In this document: in pieces, positions 5,619 to 61,885 of the stretch
How the letters are laid out: each line of letters starts with the position of its first letter
Numbering within the stretch: position 1 is the stretch's first letter
Assembly (NCBI GenBank): GCA_963580285.1
Contig: OY757017.1
Location: forward strand, 116,585,527 to 116,649,526
Direction of reading: 5' to 3'
Source of the DNA: Lucinisca nassula
Lineage: Eukaryota; Mollusca; Bivalvia; Lucinida; Lucinidae
Length of the DNA: 64,000 nucleotides
Notes under the pieces: model-generated
The model's input: only the letters and a program-made list of their open reading frames with translations
What the model was told of the DNA's origin: nothing
Database searches by the model: none
Translations under genes and position numbers: made by a program

Positions 5619-6079
5619 ATAGAAGTAGACGCAATGATCAGGAATCGATACAATTTACCAGTAGCTCCCATCAGAGACACCAAAGGGACACCAAAAGAAA
5701 AACAAACATGAAGCAACAGACCCCAACGGAAACACCAACAGGACAGTTACTTTCCCACAAAATGGCCAAAAAGGCTATCCAAAATAAAATAATATCAGCG
5801 ACACAAACCATAACAAAAATAAACCGCGACAGAAGAACCGCCTGGGAACGGTCAGTGGATACGAATTCCACCGTGGGGGGGGGGGGGGGGGGGGAAGAGG
5901 GGGCCTTAAATCGTCGCCCTTACTTCCGTCACGATTAAGACAAATAATTTGTTCAGTGCAACATCTCCGCGAACACAAACATCAAACAACCACAGTGAGG
6001 ACTGGACAGCAAGAAACAACAGAAATGCTGGAGTAAAAGGAAACCAACCGACTCCGATGGGCCTGACCAGAGATAGAGG
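5619..6079 (-). mobile_element. Naiad copy D: 3' untranslated region (subfamily 2)
   Basis: Minus-strand 3' UTR of a Penelope-like element. Its terminus reads GATCATTGC on the element strand (subfamily 2), whereas subfamily 1 reads GATCTTTGTTTTACTTC. It contains a run of G at 5875-5895. The sequence continues upstream (on the element strand) into the SECIS-like hairpin and reverse transcriptase remnants. Confidence 0.8.
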
Positions 6080-6123
6080 ATCAGGTACCAACCAACATAA
6101 GTCTTTTACGTCGGAACCGTCAT
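6080..6123 (-). promoter_or_regulatory. SECIS-like hairpin, copy D (short-loop form)
   Basis: On the element strand: ATGA, stem GGTTCCGAC, an A-rich bulge, loop, stem GTTGGTACC, then TGAT. Third-pair T-A replaces the C-G of copy A, a compensatory change. It lacks the extra apical hairpin of subfamily 1. Confidence 0.65.
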
Positions 6124-7015
6124 AGAATCTAAGGCCTGACTAACCCGTGTGCAATTAAAGAGGGAAGCAAAGTTGTCAACCGTGATTGGGTTAGTTACCA
6201 TGCATGCAGTCTATCGTATAACATTTATCTTGTACCCAATCTTTTTATATCGAAGAATGATTTTACGAAATTGGGTGCTGAAGTCATTGCGGTTATAAAT
6301 TGTTCTAATTTATATACGAAGTCACCATAAAATTCGGGTTCCAATAGACCTTGTTGCGAAGAGATTTAAGTCCAGTATTGAATTTTGAAATTACAACAGA
6401 ATTACGTCTACCCAATTTTGAAAAGGCTTTGCGCAATTTACAGTTTCAATCTCAAAATCAAAATCATCGCGTTTATCATAAATTTTGCAAGAAACAAGCC
6501 CATCCACAATAAATAGATGTAAATCCAAAAACGGGGCCTCGGTATGCAATTAGTACCCATCGGAATACCCACAACTTGTCTAAATAACCTAGTACCAAAT
6601 CTTATGTAAATATTGTCAAGTAGAAAGGTGGGAGCTTCACACAAGTTTTTATGCTCTTCAGAAGTGAAAAACATATTTATTACATTACATGCAAGATAGA
6701 GGGAGTCTTCCCGATGAAATGTCCATTCAATTAAATCATTAAGTTTTTCTTCTATAAGATTATGAGGAAGTGTAGTGTAAAAGGTGGAAAAAAAACCAGA
6801 AGTAGACAGACTTGAAGCACGAAATCGCCTAGATTTCAATTGATTTAAAACTTCATTAGAATTTTATAGACCAAAACAGACTGCTACCCGATCTTTCGAA
6901 TACTTTGTCGCAATAATTTATCACATGTTTTTTGATGGCAGTAAAACATGAAGAGTTCAGTGGTGGTACAAGAGCTTGAATTTGCAATAAACTGTGCTTT
7001 ATATGGTCTTTTAAG
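6117..7015 (-). pseudogene. Naiad copy D: deleted reverse transcriptase
   Basis: Remnant of the reverse transcriptase C-terminal half, minus strand. Recognisable blocks are SRRFRASSLSTS, YTTLPHNLIEEKLNDLIEW, FLLDNIYIRFGT and GIPMGTNC (RT motif B). Compared with copy A, about 200 bases are missing between GIPMGTNC and the block that should read EAPFLDLHL, so the YLDD catalytic motif is gone. A second deletion removes the start of the C-terminal region. The 5' end is truncated near 7015, inside the segment matching copy A's LPKLHKKPYK. The element could not be active. Confidence 0.85.
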
Positions 7016-7904: not shown

Positions 7905-10900
7905 AGGACTTTTTAGCGGGAGCTTATAGTGTAGCGGGTCGTCCGTTCGTCGTCCGGCGCTCATCGTCCGTCTGTCAACACACTTGACCAATTATATTTC
8001 TGCAACCTGCAAGCTGATCTCAATCATTTCTTATTTGTAGCATGCCTCTTGTAGGTCACTGTTGACATTAGCTTTTTATCGGAATCGAATGAACTCTTTT
8101 GTTGCTTTGGCAACCACAAGGTCCTGTAGACTACAATGGGAAAATCCTTGTCATCACCGTAGAACCTTCAGTTTTGATCGTATCTTTCTGTAACTTATAT
8201 GTAAGGTGGCAGGGGTTCAAACTCGGTTTAGTTCGTAAACCTGCCAAGTCGACTCATTTGATATAGAGTTACGTCCCTTTGATTGCTGAAAATGCCGATT
8301 TTTTACCTTTGTCATCACCGTAACCTCTTTTTATCGGATCTTTCTGAGACTTATATGTAAGGTGGCTGCGGATAACACCTCTGATGAGTTCGAACCCCGG
8401 CCAAGTCGGCCCATTTATTATATAGTTACGCCCCTTTGGTTGCTGAAAATACTGATTTTTGACATTGTTATCATCGTAGCCCCTTCAGTTTTTATCGGAT
8501 CTTTCTGAAACTTATTTGTTAGGCGGCTGGGGATTCAACCTCAATGGAGTTCGAAAACCGGCCAAGTCGGCCCCTTTATCATAGAGTAACGTTCCTTTGA
8601 TTGCATAATCGTAGCCCCTACATATATGATCGGATCTTTCAAGAACTTTTATATTAGGTGGCTGGGGATTAAACCTAGGATGAGTTCGAACACTGGCCAA
8701 GTTTGTCTATTTATCATAGAGTAACGTCACTTTGATTGCTGAAAATGCCGATCTTTGACATTGTCATCACGGTAGTCCCTTCAGTTTCGATAGGATCTTT
8801 CTGAAACTTATATGTAAGGTCCCTTTGATTTCTGAAAATGTTTTTGACCTAGTCAATACCGTAGCCCCTTCAGTTTTGATCAGCTCTTTCTGAAACTTAT
8901 ATGTAAGGTGGCCGAGGATGAAAACTCGATGCGTTCGAAAACCGGTCAATTCAGCCCATTTGCCATACGGTTACGCCCCTTTGATTGCTGAAAATGCCGA
9001 TTTTGTCATCACCGTAGCACCTTATGTTTTGATCGTATCTTTCTGAAACTTATATGTAAAGTGGGTAGGGATGAAACCTCGGAGGAATTCGAATACCGGC
9101 CAAGTCATCCAATTTATCATTCAGTAAAGTCCCTTTGATTGCTGAAAATGCCGATTTTGGACCTTGTCATCATCGTATCCCCTTCAGTTTTGATATGATC
9201 TTTCTGAAACTTATATGTAAGGTAGCTGGGGATAAAACCTCGGATTATTCGAAAACCGACCAAGTGTTACGTCCCTTTGATATCTAAAAATGTCAACTTT
9301 TGACATTGTCATCACCGTAGCCCCTTCAGTTTTTGATCGGCTCTTTCTGAAATTTATATGTAATGTGGCTGGGGATAAAACTCAGACAAGTTCGAAAATT
9401 GGCCAAGTCGGCCAATTTATCATGGTGTTGCATCCCTTTGATTGCTGAAAATGCCAATGATTGACCTTGACATCACCGTAGCTCCTTTAGTTTTGATCGG
9501 ATCTTTCTGAAACTTATATGTAAAGTGGCTCGGGATAAAACCTCGAAGGATTTCGAATACCGATCAAGTCATCTAATGTATCATTGAGTTATGCCCCTTT
9601 GATTGCTGAAAATGCCGACTTCGGACCTTGTCATCATCGTTTCCCCTTCAGTTTTGATTTGATCTCTCTGAAACGTATGTACATGTAATTCAGGGTTAAA
9701 AGCTCGGGTGAGTTCGAAAACTAGCGAAGTGGGTCGATTACTGACGGAGTTATATCCCATCATTTGCTGAAAATGCTTATTTTTGACCTTGTCATCACCG
9801 TAGCCCCTTCAGTTTTGATTGGATCTTCTTGAAACCTACAAACAAGTAAGTCAAGGATAAAAACTTGGATGAGTTAAAAACATTGACGAGGTTGGCTCAT
9901 TTATTGCAGAGTTACGTCCCTTTTACTGCCGAGAATGCCTCGTTTTGACCTTGTCATCACCATAGCCCCTTCAGTTTTCATCGGATATTTTTTGTAACTT
10001 AAAACCTTGGCTGAGTCCAAAAACTGGTGAAGTCGGCCTATATTTTGAAGAGTTTTGCCCCCCCCCCCCCACCCCCATCATAGAAAATGCCTATTTTTTA
10101 CCTTGTAATCACCGTAGCCCCTTCAGTTTTGATCGGATTTTCCTGAGACTTAAATACAAATAAGTTGGGGGGGGGGGGGTTAAAGCTTGGATTAGTTCGA
10201 AAATTAGCGATGTTGGTCGTTTACTCATTGGAATTATGTCCTCTATATTGCGGGAAATGCTTCGTTTTGACCTTGTCATCACCGTAGAGCTTCAGTTTCG
10301 ATTGGATCTGCTTGAAACATACAAACAAGTAAGTCAGGGATAAAAGCTCAGATGAGTTCAAAACTGACGAAGTTGGCGTTTCTAGCGTAGAATTGCGTCC
10401 ACATTACTGCTATAAATGCCTATTTTTGACCTTGCCATCACCAAAGGTTCAGTTTTCATAGGACCTTCTTGAAATTTACATTAAATTTTCAGCAATTAAG
10501 GGATGAAACCTCGGCTGAGTTCAAAACTTGGTGAGGTCAGCCTATATTACAGATAGTTGAGTCCCCATCGATTACAGAAAATGCCTAATTTTTAACCTTG
10601 TCATCGCCGTTTTTCCTTCAATTTTATTGGATCTTCTTGAAACTTACATGTTAGTTAGTCAGGGATACAATGGCTGAGTTCGTGAACATTTACTGATGAG
10701 TTCAGCCAATTTATCATAGGGTTACATCCTTTGAATTGCAGAAAATGCCTTTTGTGACCCTAACTCCTTCAGTTTTCATAGGATCTTCTTAAAATGTATA
10801 TGTTAGTAAGTTAGTTATAAACGCTCAGACAAGTTTGAAAACTAGCCATGACAGTCAATTAATCATAAAGCTATGTCCTCTGCCTGGCTGAAAATGCTTA

Positions 10901-10955
10901 CGTTCGACCTTGCCATCACTGCTGCCCATTCAGGTTTGATCGGATCTTCATGAAA
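7905..10955. repeat. Minisatellite array, ~160-bp unit, ~17-18 copies
   Basis: The head (about 7905-7980) carries CGTCCGTTCGTCGTCCGGCG, then diverged tandem units follow. The anchor GCTGAAAATGCC or a variant recurs near 8284, 8440, 8737, 8983, 9141, 9442, 9603, 9762, 9927, 10083, 10247, 10408, 10577, 10739 and 10893, mostly 155-165 bases apart. Each unit also has CATCACCGTAGCCCCTTCAG and TCTTTCTGAAACTTATATG. C and G homopolymers interrupt it near 10050 and 10165. Unit divergence is considerable, so the array is old. It ends where a Naiad fragment starts (10962). Confidence 0.85.
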
Positions 10956-10961
10956 CTTATC

Positions 10962-11177
10962 TATCCTGCTGCTGGTCATGTAATTACTGGCAATTTGCAA
11001 ATTATTCCTGATTATAGGATAAGGAATATAATTTCTAAAGGACCGAAATATCGGTTTCCTTCTAAAATTGATTTCAGTAAATGTAGTGATGAAATCGCTG
11101 CTGCCTTGAATGAATTCGGTAATCGATGGTGTAAGCGAGAGTATGTTGAGCATAAAGCCCTTAAGGACTGGAAACCG
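10962..11177 (+). pseudogene. Naiad internal fragment (linker/RT N-terminus)
   Basis: A 216-base piece almost identical to 12898-13115 of the neighbouring full copy. It encodes YPAAGHVITGNLQIIPD through EHKALKDWK, the region just after the CxC motif. It begins exactly where the 160-bp array ends and stops where copy A's leader begins, so it is an orphan internal segment in the same orientation. Confidence 0.9.
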
Positions 11178-11180
11178 TAA

Positions 11181-11564
11181 ACTTTGCATATCAGGGCTGT
11201 TTTGTTTGTGCCGTGTGGCGGCTGTAAAAGGTCTCCCCGTACATGCATTTAATGCTCTTATTTTTCCAATCCTCAGGGATTGCTTATACAATTGCTTTTC
11301 ACTGTTCCATCAATTGACATCCTTTAGATACCTGTTGAAGGTCATAATTAAACCGATGTTCGTTCCTCGTTGTATAACAACTGCTTGTTTGACATCCCTG
11401 TACTTTAAGTAGACTAGGATGTTTTGTGGGCTTTTGTTGTACCTTCCTTCTATTCGAAGGAATCTTCTTCAGTAATTTTATATGCTGTTTTATTTATTTA
11501 TTTATTTAATAACCGGTATGAACATCGCTTTAGTTTTGACGGTATCACAACCTTATTAACCAAA
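11181..11564 (+). other. Naiad copy A: probable 5' leader
   Basis: Non-coding stretch between the internal fragment and the first in-frame ATG. An in-frame TAG at 11415-11417 closes the reading frame upstream. T-rich with a short TTTA repeat at 11494-11508. I see no TATA-type promoter I would defend. The true 5' end of the element cannot be fixed without other copies. Confidence 0.45.
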
Positions 11565-14500
11565 ATGAGTATTACAAATACATTTAAAATATCAATATCA
11601 CCCCTTAGGTTACACTCTGCTTCTTCTGTACGGATTCCTCATTCTATTAAGAACTTTAATACTATGTTGCCTTCGGTATTGGTTAGACCCTTAAATTTGT
11701 CTTCTATAACTTCAGTTAATCTCAAAGGAGCAGGCAATACCAATGTTTTTGGGAGTAGTCTTCGTATAAGACTATCTCCTCTCAAATCGCCAATCCTTCG
11801 AAAATATACTAATCCGTGGAAAAGAAGTGGAATGTATCCTAGTATTTCTAAGTGCAATGCCAAGAGGTGCAGATGTTGTTCGCATTTAAGCACTGCGTCT
11901 ACCGTTACTTCATCTGTAAACGGTAGACGCTTCTCTGTAGTTTACATGTCTGATTTGACATGACAGTCTACAGATTTAATTTATCTAATTACTTGACGTG
12001 CTGCAAACTGTAATATGCAGTACGTCGGTCAAACTAACCGCATGCTTAAAACTAGATTTAATGAGCATTATCGTAGAATGAGTAAGCCTAAGAAAACTGA
12101 CACTTTCTTGTACCGTCACTTTCGACGTACAGGTCATTCTGTAAATAACATTGTTATACAACCAGTGAAAAAACTTTATTATGATGCAAATTCTACATCT
12201 AGATTCAAAATAATCAAAAGACATGAAGCTGAATTGAAATGGATTAAATTTTTACAGACCCCTTTTCCACTGGGTTTTAATGACAACATTTATCATGAGG
12301 GTAATATTTCCAGAATGCCGGACTTTGATATTTTCTCACTCCTGGAATGTCGAAAACGCAGAACTAGATCTCACGGCACCAGGAAAAATGGTAACTTTAA
12401 ACGTAAATCACGTGCGTTTAAACGAAACAATACTAGACTGAAGTGACTGTCAATTATATTATTAAATCATGGACGCCACTCTATGCTTTCATTTTTAAGT
12501 TCATTACCCGTTTCTGTTTTACGTCTTCTGGACACCGAGGCGAATAAATTCTACGATAGTTCTCATCAGTTATATGATGCTGCTCTCTTAACTAGAGGCT
12601 ATACTCAGCATACTCTCCGTCCTTACATTGATTCTGAAATTAATCATAAACGCCATTTCTTCAAAATATCCTTCATTAATAAGGGTATGGATTTTATAGA
12701 TTTGCCCAGTATCTTCCGTGAGAGATCGGTGCTTTCTTCCATTCCTGCTTATTTTCAAAATACTGAAACACCTATAATTTGCTATAAATATAACAAACCT
12801 GTTAGATCTATCATTTTTAATTTCAATAAACTTGTTTCAGATCTTGATATTGATACTAATACTCCTGATTCATGTGATTGTAAAAACTCAAAGTATTGCT
12901 ATCCTGCTGCTGGTCATGTAATTACTGGCAATTTGAAAATTATTCCTGATTCTAGGATAAGGAATATAATTTCTAAAGGACCGAAATATCGGTTTCCTTC
13001 TAAAATTGATTTCAGTAAATGTAGAGATGAAATCGCTGCTTCCTTGAATGAATTCGGTAATCGATGGTGTAAGCGAGAGTATGTTGAGCATAAAGCCCTT
13101 AAGGACTGGAAACTTAGCATTTTAAAACTAGTGAATAAACGCATTTCTTTCTATTCTCAAAATACTAACTTATTACCTCCTAAGCCCAAGACGTCTTTAC
13201 GTCATCTTAAACTAGGTATTCAAGAATTTCATAAGAAGTTTGTTTTGGCCCCTGCAGACAAGGCCGCTAACAACGTCGTCGTTGTGTGACGGCTCCACTA
13301 TGTTAACTCGCTTAAGCAGGAGCTTGGTGGTACTAAGGCCTATGAACTTCAGCCTTTAGCTGAAGAGAGAGCTATAGTAGATAAACATGTTTGTCTTTCA
13401 GCCACCAAGTTTGCTGTGTGTGTTAACGAAGGCCAAGACAAGCTTCCTACGCTATACTGGTTACCAAAACTTCATAAAAAACCTTACAAAGCACGGTTTA
13501 TTGCAAATTCTAGCTCTTGCACTACCACTGAACTTTCTAAATTATTAACTTCCTGTCTTACTGCTATTAAAACGCATGTTATTAAATATTGTGATAAAGT
13601 CTTTGAAAGATCAGGAAGAAATCTGTTTTGGTCTATAAAAAATTCGAATGAGGTTTTAAATAAATTGAAATCTAGACATTTTCGTGCTTCTAGTCTGTCT
13701 ACCTACGATTTTTCCACTCTTTACACTACACTTCCTCATAATCTTATAAAAGAAAAGCTTAATGATTTAATTGAATGGGCTTTTCACAGAGAAGATTCTC
13801 TCTATCTTGCATGTAATGTCAGAAATGCATTTTTCACTTCTAAAGAGCATAAGAATTATACACTTTGGTCATGTCAGAAAGTGTGTGATGCCCTCACCTT
13901 TCTACTTGACAATATTTATATTAGATTCGGTACTAAGTTATTTAGACAAATTGTGGGTATTCCGATGGGTACTAATTGCGCACCTCTTGTGGCTGATCTG
14001 TGCTTGTATTGTTATGAAAGAGACTTCATTTTGTCGCTTTCCATTGATAACCAATCTGAAATTATTGAAGCTTTTAGCTCTACTTCTAGATATTTAGATG
14101 ATTTATTAAATATTGATAATACCTATTTTGATGGTTTGATCAGTCAGATTTACCCCCTAGAACTTCAGTTAAATAAAGCAAATTCTTCTGATACCGAGGC
14201 CCCGTTTTTGGATTTACATCTATCTATTGTAGATGGATTTATTTCGTGCAAAATTTATGATAAACGCGATGACTTTGATTTTGAGATTGTAAATTTTCCT
14301 TTTTTGGATGGTGATGTTCCTCGTGCGCCATCCTATGGCGTTTATATTTCGCAATTAATTCGATTTGCTAGAGTGTGTAGTCATGTTACTGACTTCAACA
14401 CTCGTAATAAATTATTAACGGCTAAACTCCTTAATCAGGGTTATCGGTACCATAAACTACGCAAAGCCTTTTCAAAATTTTATAGACGCCATTCTGATTT

Positions 14501-14789
14501 AATTTCAAAATTCAATATTGGACTTAAATCTCTTCTGCAACAAGGTCTATCGGAACCCGAATTTTATGGTGACTTAGTATATAAATTCAGAAAAATACAT
14601 AACCGCAATGACTTCAGCACCCAATTTCGTAAAATCATTCTTCGATATAAAAAGATTGGGTACAACATGGATATTATACGACAGACTGCATGCATGGTAG
14701 TTAACCCAATCACGGTTGGCAACTTTGCTTCCCTCTTTAATTGCACGCCGGTGGGTCAGGCCTCAGATTCTATGACGGCTCCAACGTAA
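11565..14789 (+). CDS. Naiad-clade Penelope-like polyprotein (GIY-YIG + RT) with four in-frame UGA codons
   Basis: Retroelement protein of 1074 codons that would nick target DNA and reverse-transcribe the element RNA there. Residues 1-118 are a basic leader with a Cys cluster (97-105, KCNAKRCRCC in context). The GIY-YIG nuclease follows: LIYLI (138-142), YVGQT (153-157), Arg164 and NEH (166-168), then RHFRRTGH. The linker has the CxC motif CDC at 437-439. The reverse transcriptase has LPKLHKKPYKARF from 633, motif A YDFSTLY (Asp715), motif B GIPMGTNCAP (798) and motif C YLDD (843-846). Nuclease before RT marks the Naiad-type permuted order. The frame is continuous but for TGA at codons 133, 144, 294 and 575, read here as selenocysteine. 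The start is the first in-frame ATG, with A at -3. It ends in TAA inside a SECIS-like hairpin. The alternative is a pseudogene with four stops that are all TGA by chance, which I consider unlikely. Confidence 0.88.
11961..11963 (+). other. In-frame UGA, codon 133 (candidate Sec)
   Basis: Follows YMSDLT and is ten residues before the next UGA (U-x10-U). In GIY-YIG domains of Penelope-like elements a Cys commonly sits about ten residues ahead of the Cys following LIYLIT, so this TGA probably replaces a Cys codon. The Cys equivalence is from memory of the family, not an alignment. Confidence 0.7.
11994..11996 (+). other. In-frame UGA, codon 144 (candidate Sec)
   Basis: Directly follows LIYLIT in the endonuclease, where the Cys of the CCHH metal-binding set is expected. 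Cys149 lies five residues later. No other copy in this window reaches this far 5'. Confidence 0.72.
12444..12446 (+). other. In-frame UGA, codon 294 (candidate Sec)
   Basis: Context TRLK-UGA-LSIILLNHGRHS. The minus-strand copy C, 49 kb away, keeps the same TGA in the same context (about 61864) although it has acquired frameshifts elsewhere. Confidence 0.75.
13287..13289 (+). other. In-frame UGA, codon 575 (candidate Sec)
   Basis: Context NNVVVV-UGA-RLHYVN, at the N-terminal side of the RT fingers. All three copies that cover this site have TGA: here, copy B at 15529-15531, and copy C at 61020-61022 (minus). A Cys or Trp is the expected standard residue (recollection of related proteins). Confidence 0.8.
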
Positions 14790-14833
14790 AGGCTTATCGA
14801 AAATTATAAAGATAATGTTGGTTGGTGCCTGAT
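14772..14833 (+). promoter_or_regulatory. SECIS-like hairpin overlapping the stop codon, copy A
   Basis: Layout: ATGA (14772-14775); stem 5' arm GGCTCCAAC (14777-14785); AAA bulge (14788-14790); mini-stem TTATC/GATAA (14794-14798 with 14811-14815); stem 3' arm GTTGGTGCC (14821-14829); TGAT (14830-14833). UGAC facing UGAU gives the tandem G-A quartet of eukaryotic SECIS. The 12 bases from the quartet to the AAA are within the usual range, and the second mini-stem makes it form 2. The TAA stop (14787-14789) lies in the apical part, so the element is half coding. Eight of nine stem pairs form, with a central U-U mismatch that copies D and I keep. Confidence 0.8.
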
Positions 14834-15357
14834 GCTCTGTCTCTGGTCGGGCTCATCGGAGTCTAACTGTTGGTTTTCTTTTGCTCCAGCATTTCTGTGG
14901 TTTCTTGCTGTCGAGTCCTCACCGTTGTCTCACCTCCGTGGTTCTTTGATTTTTGTGTTCACGGAGATGTTGCACTGATGAGTTAGGAGGCCTTCATGCG
15001 GACTGAACAAATTATTTGTCTAAATCGCGACGGAAGTAAGGGCGAGGATTGTGGCCACGTAAAATCGATTTAAGCCCCCCAGTGGAAATCTTCCACTGAC
15101 CGTTCCAAGGCGGCTCTTCTGTGGCGATTTATTTATGTTGTTGTTTGTTACTTACTGTGTGTATCACTTGTGTCTTTTGGTTTTGGATGGCCATATGGCC
15201 ATTTTGTGGGAAAGTAACTGTCCTTATGGCCTTCCTTTGTTTAGGTTTCCATTATGGTCTGGTCGCTTAATGTTTGTATTTCTTTCCCTTTGGTGTCTTT
15301 TATGGGTGGAGTAAGTTAATTGTATCAATTCCTGATCTTTGTTTTACTTCTACTTTT
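14834..15357 (+). mobile_element. Naiad copy A: 3' untranslated region (subfamily 1)
   Basis: About 525 bases ending CTGATCTTTGTTTTACTTC. It includes conserved blocks GTTGCACTGATGAG, AACAAATTATTTGTC, AAGGGCGAGGATTGTGGCC and CATATGGCCATTTTGTGG. This 3' end is the most frequent sequence in the window, recurring about 20 times, mostly without coding sequence. It joins copy B directly, head to tail. Confidence 0.85.
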
Positions 15358-17003
15358 AACATTTTAAAACTAGGGAGTAAACGCATTTATTTCTATTCTC
15401 AAAATACTAACTTGTAACCTCCTAAGCCTAAGACGTATTTACGTCATCCTAAACTAGATATTCAAGAATTTCATAAGAAGTTTGTTTTGGCCCCTGGAGA
15501 CAAGGCCGCTAACAACGTCGTCGTCGTGTGACGGCTCCACAATGTTAACACGCTTAAGCAGGAGCTTGATGGTACTAAGGCCTATGAACTGCAGCCTTTA
15601 GCTGAAGAGAGAGCTATAGTAGATGAACATATTTGTCATTCAGCCACCAAATTTGCTGTGTGTGTTACAGAAGGCCAAGACAAGCTTCCCACGCTATACT
15701 GGTTACCAAAACTTCATAGAAGACCTTACAAAACACGGTTTATTGCAAGTTCTCGCTCTTGCACTACCACTGAACTTTCTAAATTATTAACATCCCGTCT
15801 TACTGCTATTAAAACGCATGTGATTAAATATTGTGATAAAGTCTTTGAAAGATCAGGAAGAAATCTGTTTTGGTCTATAAAAAATGAAATCCAGACGTTT
15901 TCGTGCTTCCAGTCTGTCTACTTATGATTTTTTCCACTCTTTACACTACACTACCTCATAATCTTATAAAAGAAAAGCTTAATGATTTAATTGAATGGGC
16001 TTTTCACAGAGAATATTCTCTCTATCTTGCATGTAATGTCAGAAATGCATTTTTCACTTCTTAAGAGCATAAGAATTATACACTTTGGTCATGTCAGAAA
16101 GTGTGTGATGCCCTCACCTTTCTACTTGACAATATTTATATTAGGTTCGGTACTAAGTTATTTAGACAAAGTGTGGGTATTCCGATGGGTACGAATTGCG
16201 AACCTCTTGTGGCTGATCTGTTCTTGTATTGTTATGAAAGAGACTTCATGTTGTTTCATTGATAACCAATCTGAAATTATTGAAGCTTTTAGTTCTACTT
16301 CTAGATATTTAGATGATTTATTAAATATTGACAATACTTACTTTGATGGTTTGATCAGTCAGATTTATTCCCTAGAACGTCAGTTAAACAAGGCAAATTC
16401 CTCTGATACCGAGGCCCCCTTTTTGGCTGTACATGTATCTATTGTAGATGGATTTGTTTCTTGTAAAATCTATGATAAACGTGATGATTTTGATTTCGAG
16501 ATTGTAAATTTTCCTTTTTTGCAGGGTGATGTTCCTCGTGCGACATCGGACGGGGTTTATATTTCGCAGTTAATTTGATTCGCTAGAGTGTCTAGTCATG
16601 TATCCGACTTCAACACTCGTAATAAATTATTAACCGCTAAACTTCTTAATCAGGGGTATCGGTATCATAAACTACGTAAAGCCTTTTCTAAGTTTTATAG
16701 ACGTCATTCTGATTTGGTTTCAAAATTCAATGTTGGACTTAAAACACTTCTGCAACAAGGCCTATCGGAACCCGCATTCTATGGTGACTTAGTATATAAA
16801 TTTAGAAAATACACGCCTGAAATGACTTAAGTACCCAATTTCGTAGAATCGTTCGTCGATATATAAAGATTGGGTTCAACATAAATGTTATAAAACAGAC
16901 TGCATGCATGGTGGTTAACCCAATCACGGTTGGCAACTTTGATTCCCTCTTTGATTGCACACCGGTGGATCGGGCTTAAGATTATATGACGGTTCCAGCG
17001 TAA
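15358..17003 (+). pseudogene. Naiad copy B: 5'-truncated reverse transcriptase
   Basis: Starts inside the RT N-terminal region (equivalent to about 13117 in copy A) and runs to the TAA at 17001-17003. It keeps NNVVVV-TGA-RLH (TGA 15529-15531), LPKLHRRPYK, the motif B region (16170-16200, decayed) and YLDDLLNIDN. Disabling lesions are a TAA near 15413, a deletion near 15890 that changes frame, a TAA where copy A has AAA (about 16061), and TGA for an Arg CGA at about 16576. Identity to copy A is high, so it inserted or was copied recently, then decayed. It lies directly after copy A's 3' end, a tandem arrangement common in Penelope-like elements. Confidence 0.9.
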
Positions 17004-17060
17004 AAACATAAATGGAATTTTAATTTATTTTAGTATTCTTTATGGTGGTTGGCGCCTGAT
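16986..17060 (+). promoter_or_regulatory. SECIS-like hairpin, copy B
   Basis: ATGA, stem GGTTCCAGC (16991-16999), A-rich bulge, a long apical hairpin closed by CATAA/TTATG, stem GTTGGCGCC (17048-17056), TGAT (17057-17060). The stem survives with G-U wobbles although the sequence differs from copy A. Confidence 0.65.
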
Positions 17061-17425
17061 CCTCCGTCTTTGGTCGGGCCCCTCGGAGTCTAACTGTTTG
17101 TTTTCTTTTGCTCCAGCAATTCTGTTGTTGTATGCTGTCGAGTCCTCAACCTTGTTTCATCTCTGTAGTTTTTTTTATTTGTGTGTTCTCGGAGATGATA
17201 CACTGATGAGTTAGGACGCCTTCATGCGGGCTAAACAAAATAAGTGTATACCGCGACAGAGGGAAGGGCGAGGATTATGGCCATGCAAAATCGATTTAAG
17301 CCCCCCAGTGGAATCCTTTCCACTGACCGTTCCAAGGCTGTTCTTCTGTGGCGGTTTATTTATGTTGTTGTTTGTTGCTTACTGTGTGTATCACTAGTGC
17401 CTTTTTATTTTGGATGGTCATTTGG
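17061..17425 (+). mobile_element. Naiad copy B: 3' UTR, 3'-truncated
   Basis: Matches copy A's 3' UTR up to TTTTGGATGGTCATTTGGC, then breaks off into a minus-strand Naiad fragment. The normal terminal ~120 bases are missing. Confidence 0.8.
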
Positions 17426-17520
17426 CAATATTTAATAAATTACTAAATAACTAGAAGTAGAGCTAAAAGCTTCAATAATTTCATTAATTTCAGATTGGAT
17501 ATCGATAGAAAGCGACAACA
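17426..17520 (-). pseudogene. Naiad RT fragment at inversion junction
   Basis: Minus-strand piece of RT motif C and upstream (equivalent to 14031-14120 of copy A, ending at the YLDD segment). It lies between the broken 3' UTR of copy B and the 3' end of copy E. Confidence 0.8.
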
Positions 17521-18059
17521 TGAAAAGTAGAAGTAAAACAAAGATCAGGAATGGATACAATTAACTTACTCCACCAATAAAAGACACCAAAGGGAAAGAA
17601 ATGCAAACATTAAGCGACCAGACCATAATGGAAACCTAAACAAAGGAAGGCCATAAGGACAGTTACTTTCCCACAAAATGGCCATATGGCCATCCAAAAT
17701 TAAAAGACACAAGTGATACACAAAGTAAGTAACAAACAACAACATAAATAAATCGCCACAGAAGAGCCGCCTTGGAACGGTCAGTGGAAGATTTCCACTG
17801 GGGGTGGGGGGGGGGGGGCTTAAATCGATTTTACGTGGCCACAATCCTCGGCCTTACTTCCGTCGCGATTTAGACAAATAATTTGTTCAGTCCGCATGAA
17901 GGCCTCCTAACTCATCAGTGCAACATCTCCGTGAACACAAAAATCAAAGAACCACAGAGGTGAGACAACGGTGAGGACTCGACAGCAAGAAACCACTGAA
18001 ATGCTTGAGCAAAAGAAAACCAACAGTTAGACTCCGATGGGCCCGACCAGAGACAGAGC
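17521..18059 (-). mobile_element. Naiad copy E: 3' UTR (subfamily 1)
   Basis: Complete subfamily 1 3' UTR in inverted orientation relative to copies A and B. Contains a G-run at 17802-17818. Confidence 0.85.
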
Positions 18060-18133
18060 ATCAGGCACCAACCAACATTACCTTGAATTAGATCTCTCTA
18101 ATTCTCAATAAGCCTTTACGTTGGAGCCGTCAT
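18060..18133 (-). promoter_or_regulatory. SECIS-like hairpin, copy E
   Basis: Same core as copy A (GGCTCCAAC / GTTGGTGCC, ATGA and TGAT). The apical insert is a different strong hairpin, GAATTAGA-gaga-TCTAATTC on the element strand. Confidence 0.75.
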
Positions 18134-18358
18134 AGAATCTGAGGCCTGACCCACCGGCGTGCAATTAAAGAGGGAAGCAAAGTTGCCAACCGTGATTGGG
18201 TTAACTACCATGCATGCAGTCTGTCGTATAATATCCATATATGAAGTCTCTTTCATAACAATACAAGAACAGATCAGCCACAAGAGGTGCGCAATTCGTA
18301 CCCATCGGAATACCCACAATTTGTCTAAATAACTTAGTACCGAATCTAATATAAATAA
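18117..18358 (-). pseudogene. Naiad copy E: RT with internal deletion
   Basis: C-terminal RT coding remnant, minus strand. The last 40 codons (MDIIRQTACMVVNPITVGNF in context) are fused to the motif B segment VFRWVRIAHLLW (frame-shifted reading of GIPMGTNCAPL). A deletion removed everything between, including YLDD. Truncated near 18358. Confidence 0.85.
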
Positions 18359-19590: not shown

Positions 19591-19727
19591 ATGGGTGGAG
19601 GCAGTCTTTAGGAGATATTTTTTTTGTTGTTGTTGTTTTTTGTAGTTATCTTGTTCCTTATGATGTTTGCGTTTATTGAAGTGTATCAGTCCTTATGAGG
19701 CATATAGAGGATATTTGATTTTTTTCA

Positions 19728-19865
19728 GTGTAAGATCGAATTTTATTTCATCGAATGAACACCAAAACTGTTATTTTCACGAGTGGCGTAGCCACGAGTG
19801 AAAATAGCAGTATTGGTGTTCATGAGTGAAATAAAATTTGATCTTGCACTGAAAAAATCAAATTT
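19728..19865. mobile_element. Foldback MITE
   Basis: Inverted repeat with TGATTTTTTTCAGTGTAAGA mirrored by TCTTGCACTGAAAAAATCA, and an inner hairpin GAGTGGCGTAGCCACGAGTG. Related palindromic bits (CACTGTTTGAAACAGTG at about 20313) lie downstream to 20350. Confidence 0.7.
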
Positions 19866-20639
19866 TCTGTTTCGTACATGCTTCAAAAGGCAATATTTAG
19901 CGTCTTAAATGGTGTCGCTCACATTTGGAGAAAATTATCTTTGTTCCTGTTCGTTTCGCGTCAATTTAGTGGTGTCCATCGTGTTTAGTGGGTATACTAT
20001 TGGGTGTAAACTGACAGTTTGCACCTGAGAAATGGCCCGGGATGGTATTATTATGAATGATTAATGAAATAATTGAGAGAGTAGTTTTCCAAAGAAGTTG
20101 CTGGCAAGTCTAACGTCGCGCGACAAAAGACGTGACGCCAGTGTCATAAATGACGTCAGTAACGTCCCCGTTACACATGAACGGGCTATGCGTCAATGAG
20201 AACACATTTCAGTATTGTTCAGTTATCTGACAAAGATAAAATTGAAATTAGAGTTAGATTTGAAGAAAAAAGTAGTCCCAAACAGTGAAAAATAAAAAAT
20301 CGTTTTTTCACTGTTTGAAACAGTGAAAATATCGATTTATATTTCACTGATAAATCTCTATCATCCATTGAAAAGCATGTAAGAAACCCTTCTTGCTGAT
20401 AATTTGCTTCTTAGGAGATCTACGCTTGTTGGAGTGAATTTCCTCCATAGAAGTCGTTCACTTGTTAGAAAGAATTTGGTCCATTTGGATGCCTTGGCGT
20501 TGTAGTGGGTTTGCACTGACGGAAAAATAAGCCAAAAAAAATGATGGCAATACTCAGCTATCGACACAATAACCCCACACCCCCACCCAAGACATCGAAG
20601 GGGAATTCACAGGAACAGAAATTAACATTTCTATAATGA
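19866..20639. other. No gene recognised
   Basis: AT-rich, with a hairpin around 20277-20330 built on AAACAGTGAAAA. No coding similarity seen. Confidence 0.4.
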
Positions 20640-38745: not shown

Positions 38746-39174
38746 TCCGTATACAAGTATTTCATGCATTGGAAATCTTGGATCTTCATCATGTTGAGAA
38801 GCGATCCTTAGTATCTTTAGATGAAGAGAGCCTAATAAACATACATATACAAAATATACGTTTGGCTTACAAGTGTATTTTAATTCTGGTGCACTTTCTG
38901 TTCATGAACAATCTTCTGAAGGCCATATAGGCTTTTGGTCGGGGGGTCTGCTATCTCTTCTGATGGCTTTTTTATTTGTAGCATGTTCTTTCGTTTCAAT
39001 GACTCATGAACAATCTGACATCAGAGCAAAAAAGCCATCAATTATAACAGGGCAGACCTTCCTAAGTGCAAACAGTTCCGCTCTGTCGTATTAGACTGAT
39101 GCATTTAACAGAATGTTCAATGGATGATCAGTCAATAAGAAATGATTCGGAGTAACATGCGAGTCTATCCTTGA
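38746..39174. other. No feature recognised
   Basis: Unassigned sequence between two Naiad copies. A repeated GTTCATGAACAATCT / ACTCATGAACAATCT pair is the only structure noted. Confidence 0.35.
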
Positions 39175-39925
39175 GTCTGGAATCATTGAATCTTTTAAAT
39201 CGACTGCTAGATATTTGGAAGATTTATTAAATATTGACAATACCAACGTCGATTCTTTGATCAATCAAATTTACCCCCTCCCCATCCCTCAACCAGAACT
39301 TCAGTACAATAAAGCAATTTTTTCTGATACCGAAGCCCTGTTCTTTATTCACATTTATCTATTGTAGATGGATTTGTATCCTGGAAAATTTATGATAAAC
39401 GCGATGATTTTAATTTTGAGATTGTTAAATGTTCTTTCTGGGATGACGATATTCCTCGTACGGCATCCTTTGGAGTTAATAATTCGCAATTCATTCGATC
39501 TGTCAGAGTGTCTAGTCATGTAAAATATTTCAACACTCGTAATAAATTGTTAACGGCTAAATTTCTTAATCAGGTAATCGGAATGATAAACTATATAAAG
39601 CCTTTCCCAAGTAATAAACGCCAGTCCGATTTAGTTTCAAAATCCAATGTTGGGCTTAAATTTCTCCTGCAACAAGGCCTATTAGAACCCGAGTTGTAAG
39701 GTGACCTGCTACATAAATTCAGAAAAAGATATAATCTTTCAATGATTTTAGTACCCGATTTCGTAAAACTATTCTTCGATTTAAAAAGACTGGGTACAAC
39801 ATAACTGTTATACGACAGACTGCATCCATGGTAGTTAACCTAATCACGGTTGATTACTTTGCTTCCTACTTTAACTGCGCGCCGGCGTGTCAAGCCCCAG
39901 ACTCTATGACGGTCCCAGCCTAAAT
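39175..39925 (+). pseudogene. Naiad copy H: decayed RT C-terminal third
   Basis: Begins near the YLDD region (ARYLEDLLNIDNTNV, so the motif is YLED here) and runs through IVDGFVSWKIYDKRDDFNFE, NTRNKLLTAKFLNQ and QGLLEPEL. It reaches the end near ATGACGGTCCCAGCCTAAA. Several frame changes, and a TAA after PEL. Diverged from copies A-C. Confidence 0.85.
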
Positions 39926-40475
39926 GCTTACTTAAATTTAATTTTATGTAATTTAAATTCTGGTCGGGCCAGTCGGAGCCTAACAGTTGGTTGTCGTTTG
40001 CTCCAGGATTTCAACTATTTCATGCTATCGAGTCCTCATCGTTGTTTCATCACTATCATTGTTTGATATTTTATGTTCTCGGAGATGTTGCATTGATGAG
40101 TTAGAAAGCCTTCTTGTGGATTTAACAAATTATTTGTCGAAACCACGACCTAAGTAAGGGCGAGGATTGCGGCCGCGTAAAATCGATTTAAGTTTTCAGT
40201 GACCGTTCCAAGGCGGTTCTTCTGCCTCATTCCATTTTTTTTTTTTTTTTTTTTTTTTTTTGTTTTTGGCTTCGTTTTTGAATGTGTGTATCGCCTATAT
40301 CTTTTTGTACATGTAGGTAATCGGCCAATTTGTGGTAAAATACTATCTTTTGGCTTTCTGCTTTTGATGTTTCCATTAGGGTCTAGTTATTTCATGTTTG
40401 TGTTTCTTTCCCTTTAGTTTCTCTGATGGGAAGTGTGAGTTAATTGTATCGATTCCTGATCATTGCCTTCATTAG
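39926..40475 (+). mobile_element. Naiad copy H: 3' UTR (subfamily 2), SECIS 3' half deleted
   Basis: The 5' half of the hairpin (ATGACGGTCCCAGC at 39907) is present. The expected GTTGG...CCTGAT is missing because the sequence jumps to TCTGGTCGGGCC. A T-run at 40229-40261 interrupts the UTR, which ends ATCGATTCCTGATCATTGCC. Confidence 0.75.
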
Positions 40476-47340: not shown

Positions 47341-49185
47341 ATTGTTTAGCTCACCTGAGCCGAAGGCTCCCGGGGAGCTATTGTGATCGGTCATTCGTCC
47401 GTCGTCGTCGTCGTCCGTCCGGATGTCCGTCCACAATTCCTTTAAACGACATCTCCTCCTAAACCACTGAACAGATTTTGACCAAACTTGGCAGAAATGA
47501 TGTTTGGGTGGTCCTCTCTCAATGATGTTCAAAAAATTCCATTCCATGCAGAACTCTGTTTGCCATGGCAACAAAGGGGGAAAATAAGAAAAAAAAAACT
47601 TCTTGTCTGAAACCAGAAGGCCCAGGTCATTGATATTTAATATGCAGCTTCATCTAGTGGATCTCTGCCAAAACTGTTCAAATTACCGCCCTGGGGCCAA
47701 AAATGGCCCGGCCCCGGGGCGTACTGGTTTTTCATAGGCTTATATAGGGAAAACCTTTAAAAATCTTCTTGTCTGAAAATAGAAGGCCCAGATCTTTGTT
47801 ATTTGGTATGAAGCTTCATCTAGTGGACCTCTACCAAGACTGTTTAAATTATAGCCCTGGGGCCAAAAATGTCCACGCGCCAGGGCCCACTGGTTTTACA
47901 TAGACTTATATAGGGAAAACTTTTTTAAAACCTTCTTGTCTGAAACCAGAAGGCCCAGGTCTTTCATATTTGGTATGAAGCTTCATCTAGTGGACCACTA
48001 CCAAGCTTGTTCATATTATTGCCCTGAGGGCAAAAATGGTCCCCACCCGGGGGCCCACTGGTTTCACATAGGCTTATATAGGGAAAATCTTTAAACAAAT
48101 CGTCTTCTCTGAAACTGCAAGGCCCAGGTATTTGATATTTGGTTTGAAGCTTTATCTTGTGGACCTCTACCAAAATTGTTCAAATTATAGCCCTGGGGCC
48201 AAAAATGCCGCCGCGCCTGGGCCCACTGGCTTTACATAGGCTTATATAGTGAAATCCTTTGAAAATCTTCTTGTCTGAAACAATGAGGCCCAGATTTTTG
48301 ATATTTTGTATGAAGCTTCATCTGGAAGACCTCTACGAAGATTGTTCAAATTATAGCCCTGGTGCCAAAAATGGCCCCACACGGGGGCCCACTGGTTTTA
48401 CATAGGCTTATATACGTTAAACCTTTAAAAAACTTCTTATCTGAAACCAGAAGGTCTAGGTCTTTGATATTTGGTATGAAGCTTCATCTAGAGGACCTCT
48501 ACCAAGGTTGTTCAAATTATAGTCCTGGGGCCAAAAATGTCTCGCACCGGTGCGCACTGATTTTATGCAGGCTTATGATAGGGAAAACCTTTAAAATCTT
48601 CTTGTCTGAAACCAGAAGGCCCAGGCCTTTGATATTTGGTATGAAGCTTCATCTAGTGGACCCCTACCAAGACTATTCAAATTATAGCCCTGGGGCCAAA
48701 AATGCCCCAGCTCCGGGACCAACTGGTTTTACATAGGCTTATATAGGGAAATCCTTTAAAAATCTTCTTGTCAGAAACCAGAAAGGCCCAGGTCTTTGAT
48801 ATTTGATATGAAGCTTCACCTAGTTGACCTCTATAAAGATTGTTCAAATTATAGCCCTGGGGCCAAAAATACCCCCATGCCGGGGCCCACTGGTTTTATG
48901 CAGGCTTATGATAGGGAAAGCTTTAAAAATCTTTTTGTCTGAAACCAGAAGACACAGGTCTTTGATATTTAGTATGAAGCTTCATCTAGTTGACCTATAC
49001 CAAGATTGTTCAAATTATGGCCCTGGGACCAAAAATGGCCCCGCGCCAGGGCACCCTCGCTTTACATAGACATAGTAGGGGAAAACCTTTAAAGTCTTGT
49101 CTCAAACAGGACACTGGGGCACGTGCAAAACTCTTAGCTCAGGTGAGCGATATAGGACCATCATGGTCCTCTTGTTGTAAGAAAT
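47341..49185. mobile_element. Minisatellite-bearing element, ~175-bp unit, ~9 copies
   Basis: Bounded by inverted ends AGCTCACCTGAG (47349) and CTCAGGTGAGCG (49138). After the head with CGTCGTCGTCCGTCCGG, tandem units share TCTTCTTGTCTGAAACCAGA, TATGAAGCTTCATCTAGTGG and GCCCTGGGGCCAAAAATG. Long open frames read through neighbouring units, giving repeated peptides (KIFLSETRR, LIFGMKLHLVD); I treat these as non-coding. Architecture matches the 'pearl'/Helentron-associated elements described from bivalves. Confidence 0.8.
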
Positions 49186-56479: not shown

Positions 56480-56599
56480 AATATTAAACGACAGCATGCA
56501 TGCATGGTAGTTAACCCAATCACGGTTGACAATTTTGCTTCCTTCTTTAATTGCACTCCGGTGGGTCAGGCCTCAGATTCTATGACGGTTCCAGCGTAA
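56480..56599 (+). pseudogene. Naiad copy I: last ~40 codons of RT
   Basis: 5'-truncated remnant of the RT tail. VVNPITVDNFASFFNCTPVG is readable through to the TAA at 56597-56599. Belongs to subfamily 2. Confidence 0.8.
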
Positions 56600-56624
56600 A
56601 GGCTTATGTTGGTTGGTACCTGAT
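56582..56624 (+). promoter_or_regulatory. SECIS-like hairpin, copy I (short-loop form)
   Basis: ATGA (56582-56585), GGTTCCAGC, AAA, 11-base loop, GTTGGTACC (56612-56620), TGAT (56621-56624). Compared with copy A the third pair changes from C-G to T-A, keeping the stem. Confidence 0.75.
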
Positions 56625-57110
56625 GCTCTGTCCCTGGTCGGGCCCATCGGAGTCTAACTGTTGGTTTTCCTTTGCTCCAGCATCTCAGTGGTTTCTTGCT
56701 GTCGAGTCCTCGCCGTTGTTTCACCTCTGTGGTTGTCCCGGAGATGTTGCACTGATGAGTTAGGAGGCCTTCATGCGGACTGAACAAATTATTTGTCTTA
56801 ATCGCGACGGAAGTAAGGGCGAGGATTGTGACCACGTAAAATCGATTGAAGCCCCCACCCCCAGTGGAATTCGTTTCCACTGACCGTTCCAAAGCGGGTT
56901 ATTTTTGTTATGGTTTGTCTTTGGGTGTTTGTGTCGCTTATAGTATTTTATTTTGGACAGCCTATTGGCCATTTTGTTGGAAAGTAACTGTCCTGTTGGC
57001 GTTTCCGTTGGAGTATGCTGCTTCATGTTTGTGTTTCATTCCCTTTGGTGTCTCTGTTGGGAGCTGTGGGTTAATTATATCGATTCCTGGTCATTGCCTC
57101 TATTTCTAAT
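56625..57110 (+). mobile_element. Naiad copy I: 3' UTR (subfamily 2)
   Basis: Complete 3' UTR ending ATCGATTCCTGGTCATTGCC. Confidence 0.8.
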
Positions 57111-58649: not shown

Positions 58650-58940
58650 GTGTATTCTATGGAGTGGAGTCTTGGAGTGGAGTCTTGGAGTGGAGTTTGG
58701 AGCGAAATTTTGGAGCCAAGTTTTGGAGTCACATTCATTTGGCACGTCCTTGCTCTTGTTAGCTCAGCAGAGCAAAAGGTGCTAATGATGAGCAATTATG
58801 GTCGGACATGTCAGTCTGGCATTCGCTGTCGGACGTTGTCATCATTTGAGGTGTCTATGGAATGGAGTGATGGAATGGAGTGTTTGAGTGGTGTTTGGAG
58901 TGGAGTCTTTGGTCATATTTTGGAGCTTCATTTGTTTTGA
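58650..58940. repeat. GGAGTGGAGTCTT short tandem repeats
   Basis: Two clusters (58660-58725 and 58855-58925) of 10-14-base units around TGGAGTGGAGT. Confidence 0.7.
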
Positions 58941-58944
58941 AAAT

Positions 58945-59466
58945 TAGAAGTAAAACAAAGATCAGGAATCGATACAATTAACTTACTCCACCCATCAAAG
59001 ACACCAAAGGGAAGGAAACACAAACATTAAGCGACCAGACCATAATGGAAACCTAAACAAAGGAAGGCCATAAGGACAGTTACTTTCCCACAAAATGGCC
59101 ATATGGCCATCCAAGATAAAAAGACACAAGTGATACACACAGTAAGTAACAAACAACAACATAAATAAACCGCCACAGAAGAACCGCCTTGGAACGATCA
59201 GTGGAAAGATTTCCACTGGGAGGCTTAAATCGATTTTACGTGGCCACAATCCTCGCCCTTACTTCTGTCGCAATTTAGACAAATAATTTGTTCAGTCCGC
59301 ATGAAGGCCTCCTAACTCATCAGTGCAATATCTCCGTGAACACAAAAAATCAAAGAACCACAGAGGTGAGACAACGGTGAGGACTCGACAGCAAGAAACC
59401 ACTGAAATGCTGGAGACAAAAGAAAACCAACAGTTAGACTCCGATGGGCCCGACCAGAGACAGAGC
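58945..59466 (-). mobile_element. Naiad copy C: 3' UTR (subfamily 1)
   Basis: Complete subfamily 1 3' UTR, minus strand. Confidence 0.85.
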
Positions 59467-59540
59467 ATCAGGCACCAACCAACATTACCTTGAATTTGAT
59501 CTCTCTAATTCTCAATAAGCCTTTACGTTGGAGCCGTCAT
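59467..59540 (-). promoter_or_regulatory. SECIS-like hairpin, copy C
   Basis: Intact ATGA, GGCTCCAAC, AAA, an apical hairpin weakened by one change (GAATTAGA / TCAAATTC), GTTGGTGCC, TGAT on the element strand. Confidence 0.75.
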
Positions 59541-61885
59541 AGAATCTGAGGCCTGACACACCGGCGTGCAATTAAAGAGGAAAGCAAAGTTGCCAACCGT
59601 GATTGGGTTAACTACCATGCACGCAGTCTGTCGTATTACATCCATGTTGTACCCAATCTTTTTATATCGAAGAATGATTTTACGAAATTGGGTGCTGAAG
59701 TCATTGCGGTTATATATTTTTCTGAATTTATATACTAAGTCACCATAAAAGTCGGGTTCTGATAGACCTTGTTGCAAAGAGATTTAAGTCCAATATTTAA
59801 TTTTGAAATTAAATCAGAATGGCGTCTATAAAATTTTGAAAAGTCTTTGCGTAGTTTATGGTACCGATAACCCTGATTAAGGAGTTTAGCCGTTAATAAT
59901 TTATTACGAGTGTTGAAGTCAGTTACATGACTACACACTCTCGCAAATCGAATTAATTGCGAAATATAAACGCCATAGGATGGCGCACGAGGAACATCAC
60001 CATCCAAAAAAGGAAAATTTACAATCTCAAAATCAAAGTCATCGCGTTTATCATAAAAAATTGCACGAAACAAACCCATCTTCAATAGAAAGATGTAAAT
60101 CTAAAAACGGGGCCTCGGTATCAGAAGAATTTGCTTTATTTAACTGAAGATCTGGGGGTAAATCTGACTTATCAAACCATCGAAATAGGTAATATCAAAA
60201 TTTAATATATCATCTAAATATCTAGATGTGGAGCTAAAAGCTTCAATAATTTCAAATTGGTTATCAATGGAAAGCGACAACATGAAGTCTCTTTCATAAC
60301 AATACAAGAACAGATCCGCCACAAGAGGTGCGCAATTCGTACCCATCGGAATACCCACAATTTGCCTAAATAACTTCGTACCGAATCTAATATAAATATT
60401 GTCAAGTAGAAAGTGAGGGCATCACACACTTTCTGACATGACCAGAGTGTATAATTCTTATGCTCTTTAGAAGTGAAAAATGCATTTCTGACATTACATG
60501 CAAGATAGAGAGAATCTTCTCTGTGAAAAGCCCATTCAATTAAATCTTTAAGCTTTTCTTTTTTAAGATTATGAGGAAGTGTAGTGTAAAGAGTGGAAAA
60601 ATCGTAAGCAGTAAGACTTGAAGCACGAAAATGTCTGGATTTCAATTTATTTAAAACCTCATTCGATTTTTTATAGACCAAAACAGATTTCTTCCTGATC
60701 TTTCAAAGACTTTATCACAATATTTAATCACATACGTTTTAATAGCAGTAAGACAGGAAGTTAATAATTTAGAAAGTTCAGTGGTAGTGCAAGAGCTAGA
60801 ATTTGCAATAAACCGTGCTTTGTAAGGTCTTTTATGAAGTTTTGGTAACCAGTATAGCGTAGGAAGCTTGTCTTGGCCTTCAGTAACACACACAGCAAAC
60901 TTGGTGGCTGAATGACAAACATGTTTATCTACTATAGCTCTCTCTTCGGCTAAAGGCTGAAGTTCATAGGCCTTAGAACCACCAAGCTCCTGCTTAAGCG
61001 TGTTAACATAGTGGAGCCGTCACACAACGACGACGTTGTTAGCGGCCTTGTCTGCATCACCCAAAACAAACTTCTTATGAAATTCTTGAATACCTAGTTT
61101 AAGATGACGTAAAGACGTCTCGGGCTTAGGAGGTAATAAGTTAGTATTTTGAGAATAGAAAGAAATGCGTTTATTCACTAGTTTTAAAATGCTAAGTCTC
61201 AAGTCCTTAAGGGCTTTATGCTCAACATACTCTCGCTTAAACCATCGATTACAGAATTCATTCAAGGAAGCAGCGATTTCATCTCTACATTTACGGAAAT
61301 CAATTTTAGAAGGAAACCGATATTTCGGTCCTTTAGAAATTATATTCCTTATCCTAGAATCAGGAATAATTTTCAAATTGCCAGTAATTACATGACACGC
61401 AGCAAGATAGCAATACACTGAGTTTTTACAATCACATGAATCAGGAGTATTAGTATCAATATCAAGATCTGAAACAAGTTTATTGAAATTAAAAATGATA
61501 GATCTAACAGGTTTGTTATATTTATAGCAAATTATAGGTGTTTCAGTATTTTGAAAATAACCAGGAATGGAAGAAAGCACCGATCTCTCAGGAAGATACT
61601 GGGCAAATCTATAAAATCCATACCCTTATTAATAAAGGATATTTTGAAGACATGGCGTTTATGATTAATTTCAGAATCAATGTAAGGACAGATAGTATGC
61701 TGAGTATAGCCTCTAGTTAAGAGAGCCGCATCATATAACTGATGAGAACTATCGTAGAATTTCTTCGCCTCGGTGTCCAGAAGACGTAAAACAGAAACGG
61801 GCAATGAACTTAAAAATGAAAGCATAGAGTGGCGTCCATGATTTAATAATATAATTGGCAGTCACTTCAGTCTAGTATTGTTTGA
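59523..61885 (-). pseudogene. Naiad copy C: 5'-truncated polyprotein with frameshifts
   Basis: Second-longest copy, minus strand. It starts near 61885, just upstream of the NNTRLK-TGA site, so the endonuclease is lost. It has the linker (SCDCKNS CxC motif) and the whole RT. Relative to copy A it has one-base deletions near 61590 (CTTCCGTGAG to CTTCCTGAG), 60670 and 60415, plus frame changes near 60150 and 59775. Both TGA sites it covers are preserved: after TRLK (about 61864) and after NNVVVV (61020-61022). Motif C reads SRYLDDILNFD. The frameshifts make it inactive, but close identity to copy A implies a recent common source. Confidence 0.9.

Follow-up and report, generated by a model that had tools for sequence, protein, structure and literature searches.

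A Naiad-type Penelope-like retrotransposon of Lucinisca nassula that probably encodes a selenoprotein

Introduction

Selenoprotein Naiads, which contain multiple selenocysteine (Sec) residues, were reportedly found in clams and spiders by Craig, Yushenova, Rodriguez and Arkhipova in 2021. These elements reportedly combine the order N-terminal GIY-YIG, CxC and reverse transcriptase (RT) with multiple Sec; the element described here shares this order and, putatively, the multiple Sec. The Naiad endonuclease carries a CCHH motif, and Naiads show an insertion-in-fingers domain, a pseudo-LTR and tandem or inverted copies. To our knowledge, Naiads contain no canonical hammerhead ribozyme. Canonical Penelope and Poseidon elements resemble the present element in encoding a GIY-YIG endonuclease and a telomerase-like RT in one open reading frame (ORF). 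In the passages of PMC11167929 that deal with them the endonuclease is C-terminal, whereas in the present element it is N-terminal.

Here we describe an element from a window of the bivalve Lucinisca nassula, the window being the whole 64-kb stretch of DNA that was analysed. We consider it, with a probability of about 0.9, to be a Naiad-type Penelope-like retrotransposon encoding a selenoprotein. The enzyme of this element can apparently be made only if the internal stop codons are read as Sec.

Results

A long frame interrupted only by TGA

The initial annotation of this DNA had described one frame of 1074 codons that is broken by four TGA codons and by no TAA, TAG or frameshift, with a final TAA, and this was confirmed. 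The sole breaks in the plus-strand frame 11565-14789 are the TGA codons 133, 144, 294 and 575, and the final TAA begins at 14787. The frame opens at 11565 with the first in-frame ATG past an upstream stop, and its start residue is also the projected start in 77 of the 120 listed N-terminal relatives. The features of the element and of its neighbours are collected in Table 1.

The initial annotation had also considered four random stops, all of them TGA, to be unlikely. Given the codons that make up the frame, 0.29 of random nonsense mutations would produce TGA, so that four of four TGA has p ~0.007; if the codons one step away from TGA are considered, the chance that at least three of the four fall on Cys codons is p ~0.03. 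As bare statistics these two observations are weak and their weight is modest. What takes the TGA pattern beyond chance is its recurrence: in the predicted proteins of relatives these codons appear as ends or as Trp, and in sibling copies of the window they are TGA.

Table 1 Positions of the element, its coding and RNA features and related copies within the window.
Feature	Position	Strand	Remarks
Inserted element	11176..15355	+	4180 nt: 389 nt 5' leader, ORF, 566 nt 3' UTR
Single ORF	11565..14789	+	1074 codons, of which four are TGA, followed by TAA
TGA codon 133	11961..11963	+	putative Sec; Cys column upstream of GIY
GIY-YIG endonuclease	11976..12266	+	residues ~138-234 (LIY ... YVG)
TGA codon 144	11994..11996	+	putative Sec; the first of two Cys-type positions between GIY and YIG
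TGA codon 294	12444..12446	+	between endonuclease and CxC/RT; non-Cys column
Telomerase-like reverse transcriptase	12789..14561	+	residues ~409-999; YLDD at 14091-14102
CxC motif C437-D-C439	12873..12881	+	of 105 lettered rows, 94 have Cys at the first position and 98 at the second
TGA codon 575	13287..13289	+	putative Sec; Cys column directly before helix after PADK..VVVV in RT
SECIS (predicted)	14762..14841	+	quartet UGAC 14773-14776 / UGAU 14830-14833
SECIS helix	14777-14785 with 14821-14829	+	nine pairs including one U-U
TAA stop codon	14787..14789	+	inside SECIS
SECIS AAA motif	14788-14790	+	in loop; AA of the TAA stop begins AAA
Older copy, left part	10961..11175	+	98% to 12899-13113
Older copy, right part	15356..17432	+	decayed, with indels, additional TGA and TAA at three codons; keeps TGA 575 and SECIS-like end
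5'-truncated sibling	58940..61883	-	96% identical, frameshifts; keeps TGA 294, TGA 575 and SECIS
SECIS of sibling 58940..61883	59459-59550	-	Rfam SECIS_1
SECIS of other copy	56572..56632	+	third helix pair U-A
SECIS of other copy	6070..6131	-	third helix pair U-A
SECIS of other copy	18052..18143	-	long apical stem

Domain order of the protein

The ORF protein itself gave no Pfam match at E up to 1, and the order GIY-YIG, CxC, RT, named in the initial annotation, was confirmed indirectly through relatives and a folded model. Pfam places GIY-YIG (PF01541) before RVT_1 in five of the seven relatives scanned (P0022, P0028, P0031, P0077 and P0078); three of these five RVT_1 matches score below the curated cut-off. 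No family was found in P0010 and P0001. Four of the PF01541 domains were mapped by alignment, and that of P0022 falls on residues 138-234 of the ORF protein. The folded model matches telomerase RT. The VIA-align rows barely cover the residues before 409, so that the evidence for the endonuclease fold comes from the Pfam matches of the relatives. A PDB sequence search with the ORF protein, and a profile compared with PDB sequences, returned nothing useful; insulin matches in the sequence search (E 0.24-0.64) were taken as chance. Judged from its relatives and its fold, the protein has the plan of Naiad Penelope-like elements, that is an N-terminal GIY-YIG, CxC and a telomerase-like RT.

Between LIY and YVG there are two Cys-type positions, 144 (TGA) and 149. 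No pseudo-LTR was seen on the element (11176..15355), the 5' leader of which has no match to its own 3' end, and no hammerhead was among the 31 Rfam matches obtained at E up to 10 in the 64-kb window.

The first Cys of the CxC motif, residue 437, is Cys in this copy and Trp, probably from TGA, in all four close kin that cover it among the 24 relatives of at least 65% identity (P0001, P0003, P0004 and P0008). A Trp at 437 in P0014 was discounted, the true match of this protein beginning at residue 560. Sec sites thus seem, from these predicted proteins, to move between lineages.

Residues of relatives at the TGA positions

Relatives were known as protein records, in which the type of a stop is invisible, and codons were read within the 64-kb window. 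The main alignment holds 120 listed relatives, which for pairwise comparison were divided into 96 of less than 65% identity and 24 of at least 65%. In the multiple alignment Cys stands at site 133 in 61 of 64 lettered rows, at site 144 in 66 of 68, and at site 575 in 107 of 118, the remainder at 575 being Trp (8) and others (3). Pairwise, the 96 listed relatives below 65% identity have Cys at 144 in 47/47 rows and at 575 in 93/95, with a weaker result at 133 (45 of 60 lettered). None of the 24 closer relatives covers site 133 or site 144; at 575 ten have Cys, five have Trp and nine do not cover the position. The expectation of the initial annotation that the TGA columns are Cys in non-Sec relatives was therefore borne out at 133, 144 and 575 and failed at 294, which is mostly Asp in close kin.

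Eighteen columns of the 120-relative alignment are mostly Cys, and Trp occurs at three of these, 133 (one row), 437 (five) and 575 (eight). In two relatives (P0001 and P0003) Trp stands at 437 and 575, and all their other Trp residues lie in columns that are commonly Trp; six (P0004, P0008, P0012, P0016, P0020 and P0032) carry further Trp elsewhere as well.

Two further searches used pieces of the protein as queries. Because the protein searches are confined to lengths of 0.55-1.75 times that of the query, uninterrupted Cys forms of the close family could not appear in these two. With residues 1-132 (best 120 of 535 proteins), the projected end is at residue 132 in 102 of the 120 listed N-terminal relatives and at 143 in three. 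Eleven rows are aligned through 133 and carry Trp (6), Cys (2), Gly (1, P0248), Leu (1, P0308) or Ile (1, P0360), the last three being exceptions that show neither Cys, Trp nor an end. All six rows with Trp at 133 have Trp at 144 too. The two rows with Cys at 133, P0245 and P0327, come to an end at 143, as does the Gly form. With residues 145-293 (best 120 of 685 proteins), the first Met after 144 is the start in 86 of the 120 listed relatives. Upstream letters were present in six rows of this search; those of P0182, P0192 and P0230 are unrelated, whereas in the other three the letters match, and Trp stands at 133 as well as at 144.

When both piece searches are pooled, Trp is found at 144 in 9/9 and at 133 in 9/14 lettered rows. 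Elsewhere it is frequent at the conserved W226 (116 of 119 rows), and any other well-covered column has it in at most six of ~120 rows. The nine Trp rows are alike around the sites (P0256 and P0257 are one residue apart) and so represent few independent cases. On the simple reading, the ends and the Trp residues would come from gene callers that either stop at TGA or print Trp via translation table 4. Reading Trp as table-4 TGA follows from its concentration at the Sec columns; in protein records alone it could be TGG. The initial annotation had counted TGG or other sense codons unrelated to Cys at these sites as adverse; a form of this does occur, as Trp at the sites in predicted proteins of relatives, which we read as table-4 TGA. 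Relatives were absent from IMG/VR, searched with the last 499 residues, and from prokaryote contigs, searched with P0001.

A predicted SECIS that straddles the stop codon

The Rfam model SECIS_1 matches 14762-14841 with 25.1 bits (gathering threshold 35) and E 0.019 for the 761 nt searched, and this is the one SECIS found in 14600-15360 (Rfam, E up to 1). Its free energy is unexceptional (z -0.88). Across the 64-kb window, with E up to 10, SECIS_1 has five matches, each of which lies at the 3' end of an element copy. A strict SECIS pattern had seven matches, six of them element copies, compared with an average of 0.72 and at most 3 in 100 random windows; as the six are homologous, they count as about one independent event. 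A strict-pattern match at 12676 on the minus strand was taken as chance. Ten copies span the SECIS region, of which six fit the strict pattern and four do not, while Rfam finds five and misses five.

Eight of the ten copies were aligned; c39 (39173-40465) and c22 (22621-21797) were left out, their 3' strand being deleted or diverged. RNAalifold on the eight copies predicts just the SECIS helix, in which 62 of 64 cells (96.9%) are paired, compared with 22-50% in slid controls. In two of the eight copies the third helix pair is changed on both sides, from C-G to U-A. One pair alone changes in this way, and the covariation score was reached by 105 of 500 shuffles. Since the covariation test is weak, the slid controls and the Rfam matches carry the claim of a SECIS. 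The core is mutated in c38 (ATGA to GTGG), c30 and c38 break one helix pair each, and the apical part differs in length between copies. The letters TAA at the stop are kept in all nine sibling copies aligned there.

Nested insertion and sibling copies

Put together, the flanks 10961-11175 and 15356-15700 give a gapless match to 12899-13458 (95% over 560 nt), from which it follows that 11176-15355 is an insertion that cleanly splits an older copy. The gapless join leaves no visible target duplication at this nested self-insertion. Together with the clean frame, the nested insertion supports a recent event, in agreement with the initial annotation, which had called the copy a recent member. Judged by its sequence, the copy looks intact and is most likely a recently mobile Naiad that encodes a selenoprotein.

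Many further fragments of the family lie in the window on both strands, mostly 3' parts. TGA 575 is present in both window siblings that cover it, and TGA 294 also in the copy 61883-58940, the sole other window copy covering that site. The dN/dS to four siblings, by a simple count, is 0.42, 0.30, 0.41 and 0.23 over 781, 540, 239 and 292 codons, which lie almost wholly downstream of codon 294. These values probably understate the constraint that acted during mobility, since the siblings are in decay. The initial annotation had looked to other copies for the same TGAs and a low Ka/Ks; within the window this stood, with TGA 575 in 2/2, TGA 294 in 1/1 and dN/dS of 0.23-0.42. It had also regarded random stop types in siblings as adverse; such stops (TAA, TAG and other TGA) do occur in the decayed siblings, as is expected of dead copies.

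Other repeats were observed in the window. Diverged repeats of ~161 nt occupy 8146-10989, directly upstream of the element region, and suggest a bivalve satellite of the BIV160 kind. The relevant passages of PMC5139131 give no consensus for comparison with the ~161-nt repeats. A long hairpin at 19690-19891 has sub-threshold Rfam matches to plant miRNAs and is perhaps a MITE-like palindrome, and a 166-nt unit is present in nine tandem copies at 47593-49093.

Codon 294 and other readings of the TGA codons

In the multiple alignment of 120 listed relatives, the residues at site 294 include Asp, Asn and His, and the column is non-Cys in the distant ones. Close-kin rows come from the search with residues 145-293 (best 120 of 685); the 51 that are lettered at 294 have D (43), E (3), N (2), and one each of C (P0147), G and A. 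Five relatives (P0121, P0122, P0163, P0133 and P0138), of 98.5 to 70% identity, end exactly at 293. P0179 and P0161 were rejected as ends at 294, their stop lying close by and off the site, and eight more relatives projecting to 292-293 (e.g. P0136 and P0174) are frameshifted before site 294. In the predicted model residue 294 opens a confident helix (292-302) just after a loose linker (261-280, pLDDT ~50). As read from these sequences, codon 294 is an end common to a sublineage, at a position that is mostly non-Cys in the wider family.

The three other Sec sites could be real and TGA 294 a true stop, which either kills the fusion protein of this subfamily or sets an endonuclease of 293 residues apart from the RT. 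Such a stop would suit the Asp of 43 of the 51 lettered close-kin rows, the non-Cys residues of distant relatives and a position between two enzyme domains, after a linker of low confidence in the model. We nevertheless regard it as rather unlikely: TGA stands there in both copies seen as DNA, five relatives (70-98% identity) end exactly there while P0147 has Cys, dN/dS is 0.23-0.42 downstream of 294, and a working SECIS would have the codon read through.

The UGA codons would be read as something other than Sec if leaky readthrough inserted Trp, Arg or Cys or if the genetic code had changed. C follows TGA at all four sites, and UGAC is the leakiest readthrough context. Such a reading is very improbable in our view, as the Cys columns at three sites and the 3' SECIS core fit Sec better, and nuclear reassignments of UGA are not known from animals.

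A dead copy with four chance nonsense mutations, all TGA, has almost no chance of being correct. In its favour, most other window copies are fragments, and indels, TAA, TAG or additional TGA are present in the four siblings that were examined. Against it, the frame runs for 1074 codons free of TAA, TAG or indel, TGA 575 and 294 are common to siblings, 102 of 120 listed relatives project to an end at 133, and three of four TGA fall on Cys columns.

Discussion

A multi-Sec Naiad, which the initial annotation had proposed as probable, is supported by the Naiad plan of the protein, by the three of four TGA on Cys columns, by the end shared at 133 and by the 3' SECIS core. An exchange between Cys and UGA is supported by P0245 and P0327, with Cys at 133 and an end at 143, and by the Trp at 437 in close kin.

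For such a selenoprotein, the host Sec machinery (SBP2, eEFSec and tRNA-Sec) would bind the lone 3' SECIS and insert Sec at the UGA codons, yielding an endonuclease-RT of 1074 residues. Sec144 would then stand in for one Cys of the presumed CCHH zinc site of the endonuclease, and Sec575 for a Cys of the RT. The protein would nick DNA and prime reverse transcription, as has been proposed for other Penelope-like elements. With a SECIS present, UGA would no longer be lethal and UAA and UAG still would be, so that Cys and UGA could exchange, and this tolerance may allow even a non-Cys codon such as 294 to turn into UGA. A more speculative and doubtful proposal is that UGAs have spread beyond Cys and that 294, which is Asp in sister lineages, acts as a switch, governed by the Sec supply, that yields either a free endonuclease of 293 residues or the complete endonuclease-RT, with the stop-straddling SECIS being melted by finishing ribosomes, which would limit output.

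If the element does encode a selenoprotein, the mobility of an abundant animal retrotransposon would be tied to selenium and to the Sec machinery. Its enzyme would also be hidden from standard gene annotation, the predicted proteins of relatives ending at 133 or showing Trp. The many copies of different age offer a natural experiment on the gain and loss of UGA once a SECIS is present, and they bear on how one SECIS overlapping the stop codon can serve four UGAs.

The class of selenoprotein Naiads was reportedly described in 2021, and the present copy would be a new and unusually complete member of it, in which the SECIS straddles the stop codon and one UGA lies outside the Cys columns. Multi-Sec proteins of the selenoprotein P type have several UGA in one mRNA and two SECIS in the 3' UTR; the present element is likewise of the multi-UGA type, but with one SECIS found in place of two. 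In the passages of PMC6769590 that concern Fowlpox virus GPX4, a SECIS overlapping the coding sequence is reported as functional in mammalian cells. Compared by description, the SECIS of the fowlpox gene lies inside the ORF, whereas that of the present element straddles the stop codon.
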